From Nitzschia sp. pyKryTriq1 (lineage: Eukaryota > Bacillariophyta > Bacillariophyceae > Bacillariales > Bacillariaceae), in contig OY101122.1 in assembly GCA_956465555.1 (NCBI GenBank), forward strand, positions 1,127,001-1,191,000: 64,000 nt of DNA. The letters run 5' to 3'. The notes below the pieces were generated by a model. The model searched no databases. It was not told the DNA's origin and was given only the letters and a program-made list of their open reading frames with translations. A program made the position numbers and the translations under genes. Positions within the stretch are counted from its first letter, which is position 1. Every line of letters starts with the position of its first letter. Of this stretch, positions 6,226 through 38,988 are shown one piece after another.

Positions 6226-7178
6226 GGTTCGTGATATTATTATGAACTATCAACTAACACCAGCGTCCTTGCGATCGATGATTCCAAAACGCCTCGACCC
6301 TCGTACGATTTGATTGACAGCGCAACTAAACCCCGCTACGTAGTTTCTGCCTCTTACAACGGTGAAGAAGTGAAGTCTTGGCGGCTTGGCCCGTTTGATA
6401 ATAGTTTGACGGAAAAGGTACAGTAGACTATGTATGGTATGTTTTCCTAACACAAACCCATTTCCATCACACTCTAGAGTAGAGTACAACAAATCCCGTA
6501 TGCGAGTTGTACCGGACTACAGTACTTAGTACTGTACTGGTAGATGTCATGAGAGGAACGATGCGGCAAGGCTAGATTTGAATTTCGGCGAGAGTGGGCG
6601 AGAAAAGCGATCTGCACCAGAATATACGCGCTATTTAACCGATTTACCGACATTTTTTTTAAGAAAATGTATACACATATAATGATCGCAAGTGGCTGTC
6701 GGTCGTGCGAGCTATGTACAGTAAATTTCCATCACAGACAAAGGAGCGGGCAGCGCGCGAATGCGCGAGGCCGGCTCTGTCCTCCGCCCTCCGCCTGCCT
6801 GCCCTTTGCTGCCCTGTCTATCTGATGAAAGAGGACGACTCATACGACCAGTGTGTTTTGGTTTCAGAGTTCGCGCCATTTTTTTTTCTGCCTCCATTCA
6901 TCAAGCCGCGCGGAAATACCGTGCTTGGAGTGGTTCTGCGTAGATATCTACGTAGAAAAAGTACTGAAGCATCCCGCTCTGGCTCGGCCAGCGCTCTTCC
7001 GGGCGCTCTCCTCTCGCATTGCTTTTCATCCCGAGGCATCTCAACCCCAACCCCGAACACCACATGCATCACTATCACTATCACTTATCACTAACTACAA
7101 CTACAACTACAACTACAACTACAGAACCTTCTCTCTACTATAGCTATTAGCCCCATCAAATAATAGTAATACAATACC
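6226..7178. other. Divergent intergenic region between the coiled-coil gene and Sld5
   Basis: About 950 bp likely holding two divergent promoters. Short antisense frames here overlap each other and have no family signature. The end nearest Sld5 is a simple-sequence leader. Confidence 0.6.
7094..7123. repeat. (CTACAA)n simple repeat in the Sld5 5' leader
   Basis: Five near-perfect ACTACA/CTACAA units, preceded by CACTAT units, 55-85 bp upstream of the Sld5 ATG. Confidence 0.9.
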
Positions 7179-11201: not shown

Positions 11202-13283
11202 CTAATAATCTTGTGAACATTCTTTGTCTTCACCACGAACACGACAGACCAATCGTCTTAGCATCCAGACATGGCTCACAAAGCCGGAAGATCGGTTGGG
11301 ATCTCCCGTGGCAAGAGAGTCACCTATCCGTAGCATTGGTGTGGACGGTCCAAAGAGACCACCCTTCATTTTGCCGTTCATGTAGATGTATGGTCGGTGC
11401 TGAAAGACGGAGATGATAGGTGGGTCCATGTCGTCGTCAACTTCTGCCAGTCCCTCAAGGCCTTTCAGTAGCAAGGTGCCCTTAAAGACAGGGTCTTCTG
11501 CCATTTCTGATAGTGGAAGAAGGCTCATCGGCATACCAACCGGATCTTGTGAATACCCCTGCTCTTCAATGATTTCCAGCAATCGCTTCGCCTCACGACC
11601 AACGAGCGCAACATTGGCCCCCCGGGTAGCGAACCATACGCTTGACTCATCCAGCTCCATCCTTTCGGCGATATCTCGCCTGTAGTTACTGCCGGATTCG
11701 AAAAAATTGTTGGGGGAGCAAAACTTTTGGCATGTGGCATTTCCGTGCTTTCTATGGATGAGTTCCGGTATCTTGGCAGTGCAGGCTTTGCAGAGTTCCG
11801 AGTTGCTAGACGTGTGGCCCCAGAAGTACTCCATATCATATTCATTCTGATCACTTGGAATTTCGTGGACGTGGAGCCACCATGTCGCATAGGGTATCCC
11901 GTCTTTGCTCACAGGGTATAGTAGATTACCCTTTTGAGCAATGTTGACCACAGAGTTGTACTCTTTGACAATTTCGTAGTCGCTTTCTTTCAAATAGTAC
12001 CAGTCCTGCGACGTTTCCAGTGGTGTCCAGGTCTTGATAATTTCCTCAGCGCCCATGGTTGTTGGCTCGATGCCAGGGGTGAGATCGGGTTTTGGACAAT
12101 TGCTTCCTCGTACAAGACCATCTAGACGATGTCCAGTTGCATCAAATACCAAGAGGTTGGGCTGGGTCGATAGGAACGGAGTGTAGTCAGTCAAATTTCC
12201 GTAGAGGAATTTAACACCCAGATCCCGGGTGGAAAGAAGCAGCAGCGTCTCGATGGCATTGAGAGGTAGTGCAAAATGTGCAGAATCTGTGATTTCTGCA
12301 AAGATCTTACCCACTCTTGGGTCAATCACAGACGCCATCCCCTCTACCTGAGGTATGGTTTGCCAATTCCGAACAAAGCCTTGTTTGACTCCTACCGCTT
12401 CGACGCGATTCTCGATAATTGTTACTCGGACTTCAGGTTTCCAAGCACCGCCCTTGAAACTATTACCATGAGCAAGCGCATTTGCCAAGAAAAGACCAGT
12501 GGGTCCCGACCCTACGACGACAACATTGAGTGTATCCATGGCGAAGTGTCCATCCAGAATGCTCTCTATGTCAGACTTTGCCGACATAATATCGGGCACC
12601 TGCTCCTCTTTGCACGAAATTCTCGAATCAAATCTGGTTGTGCAGCGTGGTGTATAGATCAAATCTTCCAGGTAGTCCCAACAGTCTCCCTTGAAGCGCG
12701 GATCAAAAGCATTTCTGGAGCAGCCCTCAAGTAGTTCTTCCAAATAATCAGGAATATCAGATTCATCATCCCACTCGAATTCTTCCAGCACTTCTTCTGG
12801 CAACGTTTGTGGGCCCGACCGAATCTTTTGCCTCACTATGGGACAGGAACCCATGGTGGTTTCGTCTACGGCTTCGTATTCCGCCACATAATTCCAGGAC
12901 TCCGTGTGGCCAACGATAACTTCGGATAATATGTCACCATAGGACTCGACCACATGATCCACGTATCCAGCAAGTGGGCTTTTCGTAAGTGTCATGGTAT
13001 CTTGTTGTTGTGTCTGAACCACTTTTGCAGCCTCTTCTTCTGTGGTTGCCGATGAGGTGCAAACATCATGAGAATCGTCACCAGTTCTTATCGTAGCTAC
13101 TCGTACTGGCACGTGTACCGTATCCAGTCGAAGAAGTTCACTCTGCTGGTCTAGAAGAGATTTCAACGATGCGAGGCCAGAAGAAAATTCATCATATTTT
13201 CCACTGAGATGCAAGAAGAGGAAGGAATAGCTAGCTCCAAATAGAGACGCAAGGGACCAAAACAATGACTGATTGGCACCCAT
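11202..13283 (-). CDS. FAD-dependent oxidoreductase/monooxygenase-like protein
   Basis: 693 aa. A Rossmann FAD-binding motif begins at about residue 253 (LNVVVVGSGPTGLFLANAL), followed by the acidic end of beta-2 (VTIIENRVEAVG). Downstream LLVFDATGHRLDGL resembles the second FAD-contact region of aromatic-hydroxylase-type monooxygenases. The ~240 residues before the Rossmann motif are unusual for the family and acidic (LEEFEWDDESDIPDYLEELL). The N-terminus reads MGANQS, which fits the MGxxxS N-myristoylation consensus, and is followed by a hydrophobic stretch (FWSLASLFGASYSFLFLHL) that could instead be a signal anchor. The substrate is unknown. The stop lies 70 bp past the convergent Cys-rich gene, so the two 3' UTRs probably abut. 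Confidence 0.72.
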   Translation of the reverse strand: MGANQSLFWSLASLFGASYSFLFLHLSGKYDEFSSGLASLKSLLDQQSELLRLDTVHVPVRVATIRTGDDSHDVCTSSATTEEEAAKVVQTQQQDTMTLTKSPLAGYVDHVVESYGDILSEVIVGHTESWNYVAEYEAVDETTMGSCPIVRQKIRSGPQTLPEEVLEEFEWDDESDIPDYLEELLEGCSRNAFDPRFKGDCWDYLEDLIYTPRCTTRFDSRISCKEEQVPDIMSAKSDIESILDGHFAMDTLNVVVVGSGPTGLFLANALAHGNSFKGGAWKPEVRVTIIENRVEAVGVKQGFVRNWQTIPQVEGMASVIDPRVGKIFAEITDSAHFALPLNAIETLLLLSTRDLGVKFLYGNLTDYTPFLSTQPNLLVFDATGHRLDGLVRGSNCPKPDLTPGIEPTTMGAEEIIKTWTPLETSQDWYYLKESDYEIVKEYNSVVNIAQKGNLLYPVSKDGIPYATWWLHVHEIPSDQNEYDMEYFWGHTSSNSELCKACTAKIPELIHRKHGNATCQKFCSPNNFFESGSNYRRDIAERMELDESSVWFATRGANVALVGREAKRLLEIIEEQGYSQDPVGMPMSLLPLSEMAEDPVFKGTLLLKGLEGLAEVDDDMDPPIISVFQHRPYIYMNGKMKGGLFGPSTPMLRIGDSLATGDPNRSSGFVSHVWMLRRLVCRVRGEDKECSQDY

Positions 13284-34399: not shown

Positions 34400-34801
34400 G
34401 GGACCTTCTCAGATGATGATTCTCGGCATCCGGCGATTTTGCATACCTAGTCCTCCAATGAGATGCTGTCGCAGTCCAGATGAAAAAGTCAAGATGAAAT
34501 AGCACGTACAAATAGTAGTTTGGGGGAACTAATTCTAAGATTGCAATCTTTCGAACCAATGATTAGAGAAGCTGCTACCGCCTACAGCCTTCCATCGACT
34601 ATTAGCTATCTTCTCCGTGGTCGAAAGCATCTTGCGATCACCCCCCTCGCAATCAGAAGCCACAGAATTCCCGCACTCAGGTTCCTAAGTTCACGAATAT
34701 TTCGCTGCCAGCCATCCCAGTTTTCATCTTGTTGTTGCCATGGCTCCTGAAGGCGACTGATCAAAGGACTCAGTCGGCGGTGCACGCACAAAACTCGAGT
34801 C
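34400..34801. other. Convergent intergenic region
   Basis: About 400 bp of 3' flanks; no gene seen. Confidence 0.6.
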
Positions 34802-35202
34802 TTATTTCCCTGCGGGGGCATTTTCTTTTCTGGCGGCATCTTGCAGTAATTCCGTATCAACGTGCTCTGGTGGGATTTGAATATATCTCACTACGCTACC
34901 GCGAACAAAACAGTTTTGTAGGGCAACCAATTGTGGGTATTTGTCAGGGTTGATGATTTTCACGTTGAGTAGTTTCACATTAAGATATTGATCGACACTG
35001 TGCAGAGTCCCTGTCAGTACCACATCGTTTTTAAGCTCTACCGCGATTTCTTTTCCGACCAACGTCTTGAAAAACGATAGAAAAATCTGTAGTGATTATG
35101 AAAGATAAGGTAAGATTGTGGTACTTCTAAGCAGCACCTTATGGGCGGCGACGCCCCCCTTTTCAATTCACGCGACGTAATGTTTATCTTCACACTTACC
35201 AT
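34802..35202 (-). CDS. LSM2: U6 snRNA-associated Sm-like protein LSm2
   Basis: Two coding exons: the ATG alone (35202-35200), a 113-nt intron (GTAAGTG...ACTACAG, 35199-35087), then 35086-34802. The product is 95 aa, the same length as LSm2 in animals. Splicing gives M followed by IFLSFFKTLVGKEIAVEL, which matches the family start MLFYSFFKTLVGK. Downstream GTLHSVDQYLNVKLLNVKI is Sm motif 1 and CFVRGSVVRYIQIP is Sm motif 2. LSm2 belongs to the LSm2-8 ring that binds the U6 snRNA 3' end in the nucleus and to the LSm1-7 ring in mRNA decapping. The internal Met in other readings would truncate the first strand, so the split start is preferred. Confidence 0.92.
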
Positions 35203-35506
35203 GACGGCGAAAAGATCAATTCGTACACAATTCTACTCGCTTCTCTGGTTGCCAATGTACTGCAAGATTTCGAGGTGGACTGACGATGACGACCTGGTAG
35301 TATGATAGCAATAATGACAATGGATCGTTTGCTTTTGCGTTTTGATTTTTTGTTGGGGGTGTTTTGCTCGTTCCGATCGAGGGCTGAAGCACAAAGAGGC
35401 GCGAGATAACGTGAAAAGTTCAACTGTGTATTGTTCGAATAACATAACATTTCCCACGCTAATCGGTGTCGTCGCAAGGTTCGGCCATCCAATTTTTTAG
35501 CTTATC

Positions 35507-35516
35507 TTTATATACC
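35507..35516 (+). promoter_or_regulatory. TATA-like element upstream of the permuted tRNA
   Basis: TTTATATACC lies about 25-33 nt before the leader helix that should start the precursor. Position and composition fit an upstream TATA element used with Pol III in some algae and plants. Inference only. Confidence 0.4.
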
Positions 35517-35554
35517 ATTTTTTTTGCCTTTCTGGCTGACTCCGGCCTCAAGTC

Positions 35555-35633
35555 AGCCCTTGGTCGTGGGTTCGAACCCCACCTGGAGCACTCTATGCTC
35601 CCGTAACTCAGTGGTTAGAGTGGGGGTCTTATG
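35555..35633 (+). tRNA. Circularly permuted tRNA-Ile (anticodon UAU)
   Basis: The 3' half (35555-35590: A38, anticodon-stem 3' strand GCCCT, variable loop TGGTC, T arm GTGGG-TTCGAAC-CCCAC, acceptor 3' strand CTGGAGC, discriminator A) lies upstream of the 5' half (35597-35633: acceptor GCTCCCG, D arm ACTC-AGTGGTTA-GAGT, anticodon stem GGGGT, loop CTTATG). Six bases, CTCTAT, separate them. Joining 37 to 38 gives exactly 73 nt with all stems formed. Exceptions are one C6-U67 mismatch and two G-U pairs in the anticodon stem. The anticodon TAT is at 35630-35632. Leader CTCCGG (35540-35545) pairs with trailer CCGGAG (35639-35644), and three-base bulges TCA and TGA place both cuts at 37/38, a bulge-helix-bulge-like splice site. 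No CCA is encoded. Residue 37 is G where A is usual. Confidence 0.85.
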
Positions 35634-35648
35634 AACGCCCGGAGACAA

Positions 35649-35652
35649 TTTT
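35649..35652 (+). terminator. Possible Pol III terminator of the permuted tRNA
   Basis: TTTT 5 nt after the trailer helix, followed within 25 nt by further TTTT runs. Confidence 0.5.
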
Positions 35653-36723
35653 GTTTCGAGGAGGTGATGTTGTTTTATTTTGTCTACTAGCTAGTAGTAC
35701 ATTGTAGTAAGTTGTCATTATCTTTTTCTTATTTTTCAAATAAATGCAGGGTTGTCTCCTCTTTTTGCTGCTCTTTTTTTGCATAATTTTGCTTGTTTGT
35801 ATCTTGTACTCCTACAGGCTCCAGGAACATTGTACCTGTGAATGAGGGAAACGTGACCAAAAAGCTTTGTGGTAATGATATGGTTTACAAGATATAGTTT
35901 TCTATTTAGTCTAGTCTCAACGAGCAGGAGGACAACAACGACTTTTTTACTACGAGTACTCGCAGTACATACCGGTACCTGCCGCGGTCGTACCGTACCT
36001 CGTACCGGTACCTCTCGCTACTACCGTACGAGTATTGGAGAGCTCTATTTTAGAGTCTCGCTCGACGGCGGCAGCAAGCGGCTGGGCTCCACTTGTAACA
36101 ACATCGGGGTTCGCGTCTGGCGTCTCGTGCGTCAGGTCCAGTGGTCAGCTTGTGCGCGCGTTCGCCATCGAAAACAGAACACATCAAAAAAGCGATGGCA
36201 AGATTATTTTTTGGCCGTGCGTCTACGGATGATCATGGAACAAAAGCAACACATCAATATTGTAGTAACACTGAACAATCCACGACCATTTCATGAGTGA
36301 ATGATCTCACAAATTGTAGAGGCCTCTTTATATTATAGGCCCGTATTGATTATCTTGGCCAGCGAGAAAATCCATTGTAGATTGATTGCCATCGCTCCGA
36401 GAATACCAGAAGCGAGAATTATTTGTGATTTTGAGAGATCGGGGGCAGCCAAAAGCACCCGGAGGTTGAACACGTACCGTTGGATTTGTCATCAGATTCT
36501 TCCTTCTTCGCCCGCGTGTTATCGCCGACACGCAACACAGCGACGGCCAACTAACATCAAAACTCAAAACCAGCTGCGCCCTCTCTCCCTCGCTTGTTCT
36601 CGCGATTGAATCATTAGACATTGCTTTCATCTTCGATTTGCTTTATCGTTGCACACAAGTGGTTCACAATTTTGATTCAATCATACACCACACTTAGTAT
36701 TGATAAAGCGCAACGATTCAGTG

Positions 36724-38988
36724 ATGAGAGCTATATTTCCTTCAGCCCCTTTGATAATGACCGCAATATCGTTAACGGTATTTTTGACGAGACGATCACA
36801 AGCTTTACAGAACCCGATAACAAATATTCAACAGCGTGGTTCTTCCGCAACTAAGCTGGCTGCCTTGGACTCTCGCCAGTTGAGATTCTATGGGAGCTAT
36901 AAGAATGGCTACTCAGAGAGTAGCGGTAACAACACAAATGGGGGCTTTACTGCTTTCTTCGAGAGCATTACCCGATCATTTCTGCCAGCCTCCATTGTTG
37001 CAGCCACCGAGCCTTTGCTTTCCCAGATAATAGTGGGAGACAACTTACGATCTACGCACATACAAACTCAGGAAAAACCACCAGTGCCATCTTCATTTCT
37101 GGCTTCAACGTCAATTCCCCAGGCAGCGGCGAAGCGCAGCTATGGGCCCTATATTGATCTCTCTGCAGAAGAGAGAGATCTTTTTCGGCTTCTGCGACGG
37201 GCAAGAGAAGAAACGGAATTGAGTACCACACTTCGAGTAGCTGGCGGCTGGGTTCGAGACAAATTACTCTCTACGCCTGAGTTTTCACGACCACATCATG
37301 ATCGGATTCGCTTGACATCCAAGTACAAGCAAGGAAGTATGGGTCGCCAAGGTACCAAGATTCTGAATAGTGATCTGAACCAACCAGTCGATATTGACAT
37401 TGCATTAGACGATATGCTCGGCAGGGAATTCGCTGAGCACTTGAATGAATATCTTGCACAGGTTGGAGAAGAAACTCATAGTGTTGGAGTTGTATTAAAG
37501 AACCCCGAGAAATCAAAGCACTTGGAAACCGCGACAATGAAAGTTGGTACCTTCTGGATTGATTTCGTTAACCTAAGAGCTGAAGAATATACTCAGGACA
37601 GCCGAATCCCAGACTTGATGCGTATTGGGACTCCGGCTGAGGATGCTTTTCGACGAGACCTTACTATCAATGCTCTTTTCTATAATATCAACAACGGCCA
37701 GGTCGAGGATTGGACTGGGCGGGGTTTCGATGATCTAAGGCGAGGGATTGTCGCCACCCCGCTTGCTCCCCTCACAACCTTGTTAGATGATCCCTTGCGG
37801 GCACTCCGTTCTGTGCGATTTGCAGCTCGGTTACGATTCACCATGGACGACGCTTTGGTCGAGGCGGCCATGGATAGGCGTGTCCGGCAAGCGTTGGCCG
37901 AAAAGGTGTCGAGGGAACGAATTGGCGGAGAAGTCGATTTGATGCTTCGATCTCCCGATCCAGTCGGGGCTATGCGTCTCCTGATTAATTTGCAGTTGGC
38001 GGATACTGTTTTCCCTCTGGAGAATTGTATTGATGATGCCGAATGTGCGTCTTCTCTCTTTGATCATGGACTTGAGCTTCTATCAGAAACGCACGAGCAT
38101 CTGACAGACTGCAGAGCATTCCCTCCCAGCTGGTGCCAGAAATCTGGCACGTATACCACGCATGGTGTCGATGAGCTGACCCTGCGTGAAGACGATGAGT
38201 CGCGTCGTTTTCTTTGGTACGCATCCTTTTTGAAGCCCATTCATGATCACTCGAAAATGCTAGCGAAAAACAAAAAGAGTGTGCGACAAGGAAAGAAGGC
38301 GAACCGTTCAACAATTTGTAGATTACTTGTCGATGAATTGAAACGACCAGTCCGGGAATCAGAAGCTGTCGAGAGAATAATAAGTGGGGCCAATGCATTT
38401 ACGCGTCTCATCGACAGTGGCTGCGATATTTCGGCCATTTCAGTCCTACTCAGCGATATCCGCGTCGAGGACGGCGACTCATCGAGTGGCACAAAGTTGA
38501 AGTGCTACATGAATGGCAAACGAATTTTCAGTGCCTCAGAAGAAGACCCGGTATGGCAGCATGCAATGGAGTTCCGATTGCTATGCGCCAAGGTGGTGAA
38601 AAAAGTCGGTCCGCTATGGCGTGCCGCGCTCTTCCTAAGCTTGTCTGAGCGTATGACAGAGGGCTTTCTTGGAGATTTGGAGTACGCCATCGAAGGGGAC
38701 GTGATCGACGAGAGCCAGGAAGAGCGTCGATTAGGCGAAATCGAACGGTATGATGCATTTGCAACAGCGATGCAACGGATAGGAGTTGTTGGTATCTGGG
38801 ATGAGAAGCCAATCATGGACGGCAAAACTATCAAAGAGATCCTACCAGCCATTCCGGTCGGCCCAGCATTTCGAGATGTCATGGAAGAGCAAGAAAATTG
38901 GATGATCGTTCATCCGGGAGCGGGAGAAGAGTTTCTTGTAAAACATATGATGGAGAAATTTCCGGAATATACCGGAGGCAGCAGCTAA
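36724..38988 (+). CDS. CCA-adding tRNA nucleotidyltransferase
   Basis: 754 aa. It belongs to the class II nucleotidyltransferase family that adds CCA to tRNA 3' ends. Motifs in order: motif A GGWVRDKLL; the metal-binding DxD in VDIDIALDD; motif B RRDLTINALFYNINN with VEDWTGRGFDDLRRGIV; motif C/D DDPLRALRSVRFAARLRF; and the helical neck/body (REREIGGEVDLML-like region RERIGGEVDLML). The first ~150 residues precede the catalytic core and include a hydrophobic stretch (PLIMTAISLTVFL) that could be an organelle or ER-type signal, so one gene may serve several compartments. An insert of about 70 residues follows the first half (SWCQKSGTYTTHGVDEL). The nearest upstream gene is the permuted tRNA, which would need CCA addition. 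The start is the first ATG after a non-ATG open stretch. Confidence 0.9.
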   Translation: MRAIFPSAPLIMTAISLTVFLTRRSQALQNPITNIQQRGSSATKLAALDSRQLRFYGSYKNGYSESSGNNTNGGFTAFFESITRSFLPASIVAATEPLLSQIIVGDNLRSTHIQTQEKPPVPSSFLASTSIPQAAAKRSYGPYIDLSAEERDLFRLLRRAREETELSTTLRVAGGWVRDKLLSTPEFSRPHHDRIRLTSKYKQGSMGRQGTKILNSDLNQPVDIDIALDDMLGREFAEHLNEYLAQVGEETHSVGVVLKNPEKSKHLETATMKVGTFWIDFVNLRAEEYTQDSRIPDLMRIGTPAEDAFRRDLTINALFYNINNGQVEDWTGRGFDDLRRGIVATPLAPLTTLLDDPLRALRSVRFAARLRFTMDDALVEAAMDRRVRQALAEKVSRERIGGEVDLMLRSPDPVGAMRLLINLQLADTVFPLENCIDDAECASSLFDHGLELLSETHEHLTDCRAFPPSWCQKSGTYTTHGVDELTLREDDESRRFLWYASFLKPIHDHSKMLAKNKKSVRQGKKANRSTICRLLVDELKRPVRESEAVERIISGANAFTRLIDSGCDISAISVLLSDIRVEDGDSSSGTKLKCYMNGKRIFSASEEDPVWQHAMEFRLLCAKVVKKVGPLWRAALFLSLSERMTEGFLGDLEYAIEGDVIDESQEERRLGEIERYDAFATAMQRIGVVGIWDEKPIMDGKTIKEILPAIPVGPAFRDVMEEQENWMIVHPGAGEEFLVKHMMEKFPEYTGGSS

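Follow-up and report, generated by a model that had tools for sequence, protein, structure and literature searches.

A candidate circularly permuted tRNA-Ile(UAU) gene with a type II junction in a 64-kb window of eukaryotic DNA

We analysed a 64-kb stretch of DNA, referred to here as the window, which is eukaryotic as judged by its gene content (gamma-tubulin, ATG11 and ATG17-like domains, signal peptide peptidase, WD40 and GINS). On its plus strand lies a compact element in which the two halves of a tRNA appear in reversed order. The element is preceded by TATATA (35509-35514), a candidate upstream Pol III promoter element that starts 46 nt 5' of the tRNA 3' half. The leader CTCCGGCCTCAAGTC (35540-35554), whose start is placed from the TATA sequence, is followed by the 3' half (35555-35590), which runs from A38 to A73 and carries the T arm and the 3' acceptor strand. 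A spacer, CTCTAT (35591-35596), then leads directly into the 5' half (35597-35633), which runs from G1 to G37 and carries the 5' acceptor strand, the D arm and the anticodon UAU; both halves were delimited with ARAGORN on the joined sequence and with the strict scan described below. CCA is not encoded at the end of the 3' half, where A73 is the last base. The trailer AACGCCCGGAGACAATTTT (35634-35652) ends in TTTT (35649-35652), a candidate Pol III terminator starting 16 nt 3' of the 5' half, and its CCGGAG segment (35639-35644) is complementary to CTCCGG in the leader (35540-35545).

Joined, the two halves are called by ARAGORN as a 73-nt tRNA-Ile(tat), and the 79-nt segment treated as a circle receives the same call. 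The swapped order with only CTCTAT between the halves, as described in the original prediction, is seen in the sequence and agrees with the call on the joined halves; the complete 73-nt cloverleaf claimed there also holds, with one acceptor mismatch, C6:U67. The joined sequence has U8, G15:C48, G18G19, U33 and U54U55C56, in keeping with the eukaryotic consensus used for permuted genes (U8, R15:Y48, G18G19, U33, U54U55C56; PMC3978253), as well as A35 and U36, and no arm is truncated in either half. It also contains several less regular features, namely the A10:U25 pair in the D stem, two wobbles in the anticodon stem (G27:U43 and U31:G39) and a G at position 37, the position that carries t6A37 in yeast tRNA-Ile(UAU). 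The bare joined RNA scores -26.9 kcal/mol as a cloverleaf versus -29.8 kcal/mol for its minimum-energy fold, so the cloverleaf is not the minimum. The acceptor and T arms resemble what we take to be those of eukaryotic tRNA-Ile(UAU).

Eleven ORF stretches of the window, read stop to stop, contain 65 AUA codons (8.4 per thousand), and since AUA is used there, an AUA-reading tRNA is needed. With its default settings ARAGORN reported no linear tRNA in the window, and none either when introns of up to 1000 nt were permitted at the default threshold. With introns and a lowered threshold it listed 137 linear candidates in the window, which we took as noise.

The flanking signals were compared with random sites. 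TATATA or TATAAA occurs at 12 sites on the plus strand of the window, and the site at 35509 is the only one within 34400-36700. A TATA sequence at -56 to -36 was found at 366 of 100,000 random sites, a comparable T-run at 12,645 of 100,000, and the two together at 74 of 100,000. In most permuted genes of C. merolae a TATA-like sequence precedes the 3' half by at most 50 bp, and a T-stretch follows the 5' half (PMC3978253); the present locus has the same arrangement, with its TATATA 46 nt away. A scan for bacterial promoters and terminators gave no match. About 1 kb downstream, the next long ORF on the same strand (36676-38988, plus strand) combines a PolyA_pol head domain with RNA-binding domains and may encode a CCA-adding enzyme; the presence of such a candidate gene near a permuted tRNA is probably a coincidence.

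We then considered how the outer pieces might be brought together for splicing. It had been proposed that leader and trailer form a helix with three-base bulges exactly at the 37/38 junction. The helix stands, as CTCCGG and CCGGAG can pair. The bulges are not confirmed: a strict BHB would have 3-nt bulges on either side of a 4-bp helix, and the sequence has no such central helix. A 3-bp CUU/AAG helix can be drawn between AUG and UCA, at a cost of 1.9 kcal/mol when added to the outer helix (from -33.2 to -31.3), and the minimum-energy fold pairs UCA with UGA rather than CUU with AAG. In nuclear tRNA introns such motifs are generally relaxed (PMC3978253). Folded without constraint, the predicted transcript (35539-35653; -38.2 kcal/mol) forms the T arm and an acceptor stem closed over the spacer; its outer pieces pair, leader and trailer form their helix, and the D hairpin takes a different register. 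In a longer piece (35528-35660) an 8-bp leader repeat leads to another fold, whose leader hairpin occupies bases of the 3' half; its z is -1.50, and 12 of 200 shuffles were equally good. The difference between the two folds means that the transcript start, which is placed only from the TATA sequence, matters. The repeat, GGCTGACT/AGTCAGCC, is inverted, occupies 35534-35541 and 35551-35558 on the plus strand, and overlaps both the leader and the 3' half. In a transcript that began 5' of it, the repeat would be a competitor of the tRNA fold.

The position of the junction was examined by enumerating joins under a loose filter. Fourteen passed, two of which have a 5/5 anticodon stem; these correspond to junctions at 37/38 and 38/39, which are indistinguishable and give the same RNA because A38 is identical to the first trailer base. 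One of the 14 joins has A37. Its junction is at 36/37, with a CUUAUAG loop and a 4-nt variable loop, and it costs a U:C opposition at 31:39.

To ask how readily such an arrangement arises, we relied on rule-based scans, because the circular mode of ARAGORN wraps too readily to discriminate (with 2800 segments per site, each of five sites gave between 363 and 1017 wraps). The strict rules for a permuted body comprised a 5/5 T stem, a TTCRA loop, at least 6/7 acceptor pairs, U8, a 4/4 D stem, A14, GG and A21. Across both strands of the window they returned one site, so that the element has a single copy there, and they returned none in 1200 Markov resamples scanned on one strand. Under looser body rules 150 resamples gave 18 body matches, all of them lacking an anticodon arm; these 18 are what a chance resemblance has in its favour. 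Holding the body fixed and drawing the outer pieces at random from window flanks, we obtained a 5/5 anticodon stem with U33 in 866 of 200,000 trials, and the same with TAT in 11 of 200,000. Between leader and trailer, a contiguous helix of at least 6 bp occurred in 659 of 20,000 random pairs, and one with at least 5 G/C pairs in 51 of 20,000. Fold energy with the body held was less telling: 79 of 2000 shuffled flanks matched it, as did 125 of 2000 random ones. With no match among the 1200 strict resamples and an anticodon arm on top of the body, we consider the probability that the locus resembles a permuted tRNA by chance to be virtually negligible.

Relatives of the element were sought with DNA patterns. 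Two such searches of viral contigs gave no match, and another pattern matched at least 120 viral loci. Viral matches considered as relatives (L007, L024 and L110 with one pattern, L110 again with another) were rejected, none being recognised as eukaryotic. Two GTDB matches from Clostridiales MAGs (L121 and L122) were likewise set aside, as the T arm that matched was part of a normal linear tRNA-Lys, which is followed by a terminator-like repeat. No relative was confirmed by way of the downstream PolyA_pol-domain protein.

The matched contigs nevertheless served for comparison. Among the matches listed, 122 loci, selected with a pattern for tRNA 3' ends and thus not a random sample, contained permuted bodies in 26 scan rows representing 24 sites. 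Eight of these 24 were two adjacent linear tRNAs, one had a linear call on one side, and 15 had neither; five of the 26 rows also satisfied the anticodon-stem rule. It follows that neither a permuted body nor the stem rule alone proves a tRNA.

The eight neighbouring pairs bear on a reading of our locus as leftovers of two adjacent linear tRNA genes that have lost their outer halves and make no joint product. Permuted genes have been proposed to arise by tandem duplication followed by loss of the outer segments, and ACGCC in the trailer could pair at four of five positions with the 5' anticodon strand. The default ARAGORN search of the window gave no linear tRNA, however, and the two pieces form an anticodon stem with each other, complete with U33 and UAU, so that we regard this reading as extremely unlikely.

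The 15 unexplained bodies instead raise the question of whether the locus encodes a noncoding RNA like YrlA, a bacterial Y RNA with a tRNA-like domain, in which a permuted body mimics a tRNA and is never spliced into one. Among Rfam families, YrlA (RF02553) in fact matched the locus best, with 33.9 bits and E 8.8e-06 when 401 bases were searched, and the five rows that satisfy the stem rule show that permuted bodies can carry such a stem. In the Rfam alignment, YrlA has its T arm, acceptor and D arm permuted within a closing helix, as at our locus, so any permuted tRNA body should score against that model. The locus, in contrast, falls far below the gathering score of 69, has a complete anticodon arm with UAU and sits in a eukaryotic host, and its acceptor and T arms have the presumed likeness to eukaryotic tRNA-Ile(UAU) noted above; a YrlA-like RNA appears very unlikely. 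Among the Pfam matches listed for 19 ORF stretches of the window there was no TROVE (Ro60) domain.

The viral contigs themselves contain permuted tRNA-like bodies (T arm, 3' acceptor, a spacer of 2-19 nt, 5' acceptor and D arm) beyond those explained by two adjacent linear tRNAs. Their T loops start at 6624, 8775, 9787 and 10605 in L055; 3844 and 4050 in L110; 3907 in L048; 7713 and 7886 in L056; 10521 in L020, with a linear call on one side; 2175 in L082; 847 in L024; and, on the minus strand, 3382 and 8790 in L008 and 242 in L030. Against YrlA, L110 scores 43.9 and 27 bits, under the threshold of 69. Leader and trailer can pair in L048, L056 and L020, as ACCAA/TTGGT and GCCAA/TTGGC. The bodies at L020 10521 and L056 7713, which lie in related contigs, have a permuted body in common, with outer pieces CCAGC and GCTGG around TTTCATA, a loop that would read as anticodon UCA with U37. 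These viral bodies are perhaps a family of phage tRNA mimics.

Returning to the window, we think it probable from the sequence features above that the locus is a circularly permuted nuclear tRNA-Ile(UAU) gene of type II, with its junction at 37/38. This is the reading that the original prediction had put forward, and it remains the best one of the sequence, with reservations that the prediction did not raise, namely C6:U67, G37, the imperfect junction motif and the existence of YrlA-type tRNA mimics with a permuted body of their own. Under this reading, Pol III would transcribe an RNA of about 113 nt, which the tRNA-splicing endonuclease would cut at 37/38, releasing leader and trailer. A tRNA ligase would then close the ends into a 79-nt circle, from which RNase P and RNase Z would excise CUCUAU, and after addition of CCA the mature tRNA would decode AUA.

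The same features raise real doubts about whether such a gene would function. The locus may be a permuted tRNA-Ile(UAU) gene that no longer functions, its work being done by a linear gene elsewhere. The C6:U67 mismatch, G37, A10:U25 and the wobble pairs speak for such a loss, as does the lack of a strict BHB, and the pattern searches of viral and GTDB contigs yielded no relatives by which selection could be seen. Loss of function is harder to reconcile with arms that are all untruncated and with the retention of the TATA sequence, the T-run and the leader/trailer pairing, and we judge it unlikely. In a more far-reaching form of the permuted-gene reading, this would be the first permuted tRNA-Ile and the first nuclear tRNA gene of a diatom known to be permuted, and the cell would depend on its product alone to read AUA; position 37 would then be either a G instead of t6A37 or an A restored by a junction at 36/37. 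We put this forward tentatively, as possible and somewhat doubtful.

Permuted tRNA genes illustrate that the tRNA-splicing machinery is able to reassemble an RNA from parts that are encoded out of order. Thirty-four such genes were described from six algal species and one archaeon (PMC3978253), and further cases have since come from Auxenochlorella and from the Amorphochlora nucleomorph, a second chlorarachniophyte nucleomorph. The table of permuted genes in PMC3978253 has no Ile entry and no diatom, and the open-licence literature, as far as its text was available, returned no permuted tRNA from a diatom, one query being swamped by unrelated diatom papers. The locus would probably extend permuted tRNA genes to a new isotype and may extend them to a new lineage. 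The tRNA-Ile(UAU) gene contains an intron in yeast and C. merolae, and a case from a new lineage in this isotype would fit the repeated origin of permuted genes from intron-bearing duplicates. Such a case would demonstrate, too, that tRNA genes escape standard scans, as ARAGORN reported none in the window.

Compared with known systems, the locus shares swapped halves and a short spacer with the permuted genes of the archaeon Thermofilum pendens (PMC3978253), which differ in that their junction is at 59/60, that they have a second intron at 37/38 and that CCA is encoded. The algal type II (37/38) genes of C. merolae, Ostreococcus, Micromonas and the Bigelowiella nucleomorph (PMC3978253) differ from it in that the present locus is an Ile gene with G37 and has the junction motif at most in a relaxed form. 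In common with them it has the 3' half first, a junction in the anticodon loop and no encoded CCA; its 6-bp spacer lies within the 5-64 bp of the type II entries tabulated in that survey, and its upstream TATA and downstream T-run are like those of the C. merolae permuted genes.
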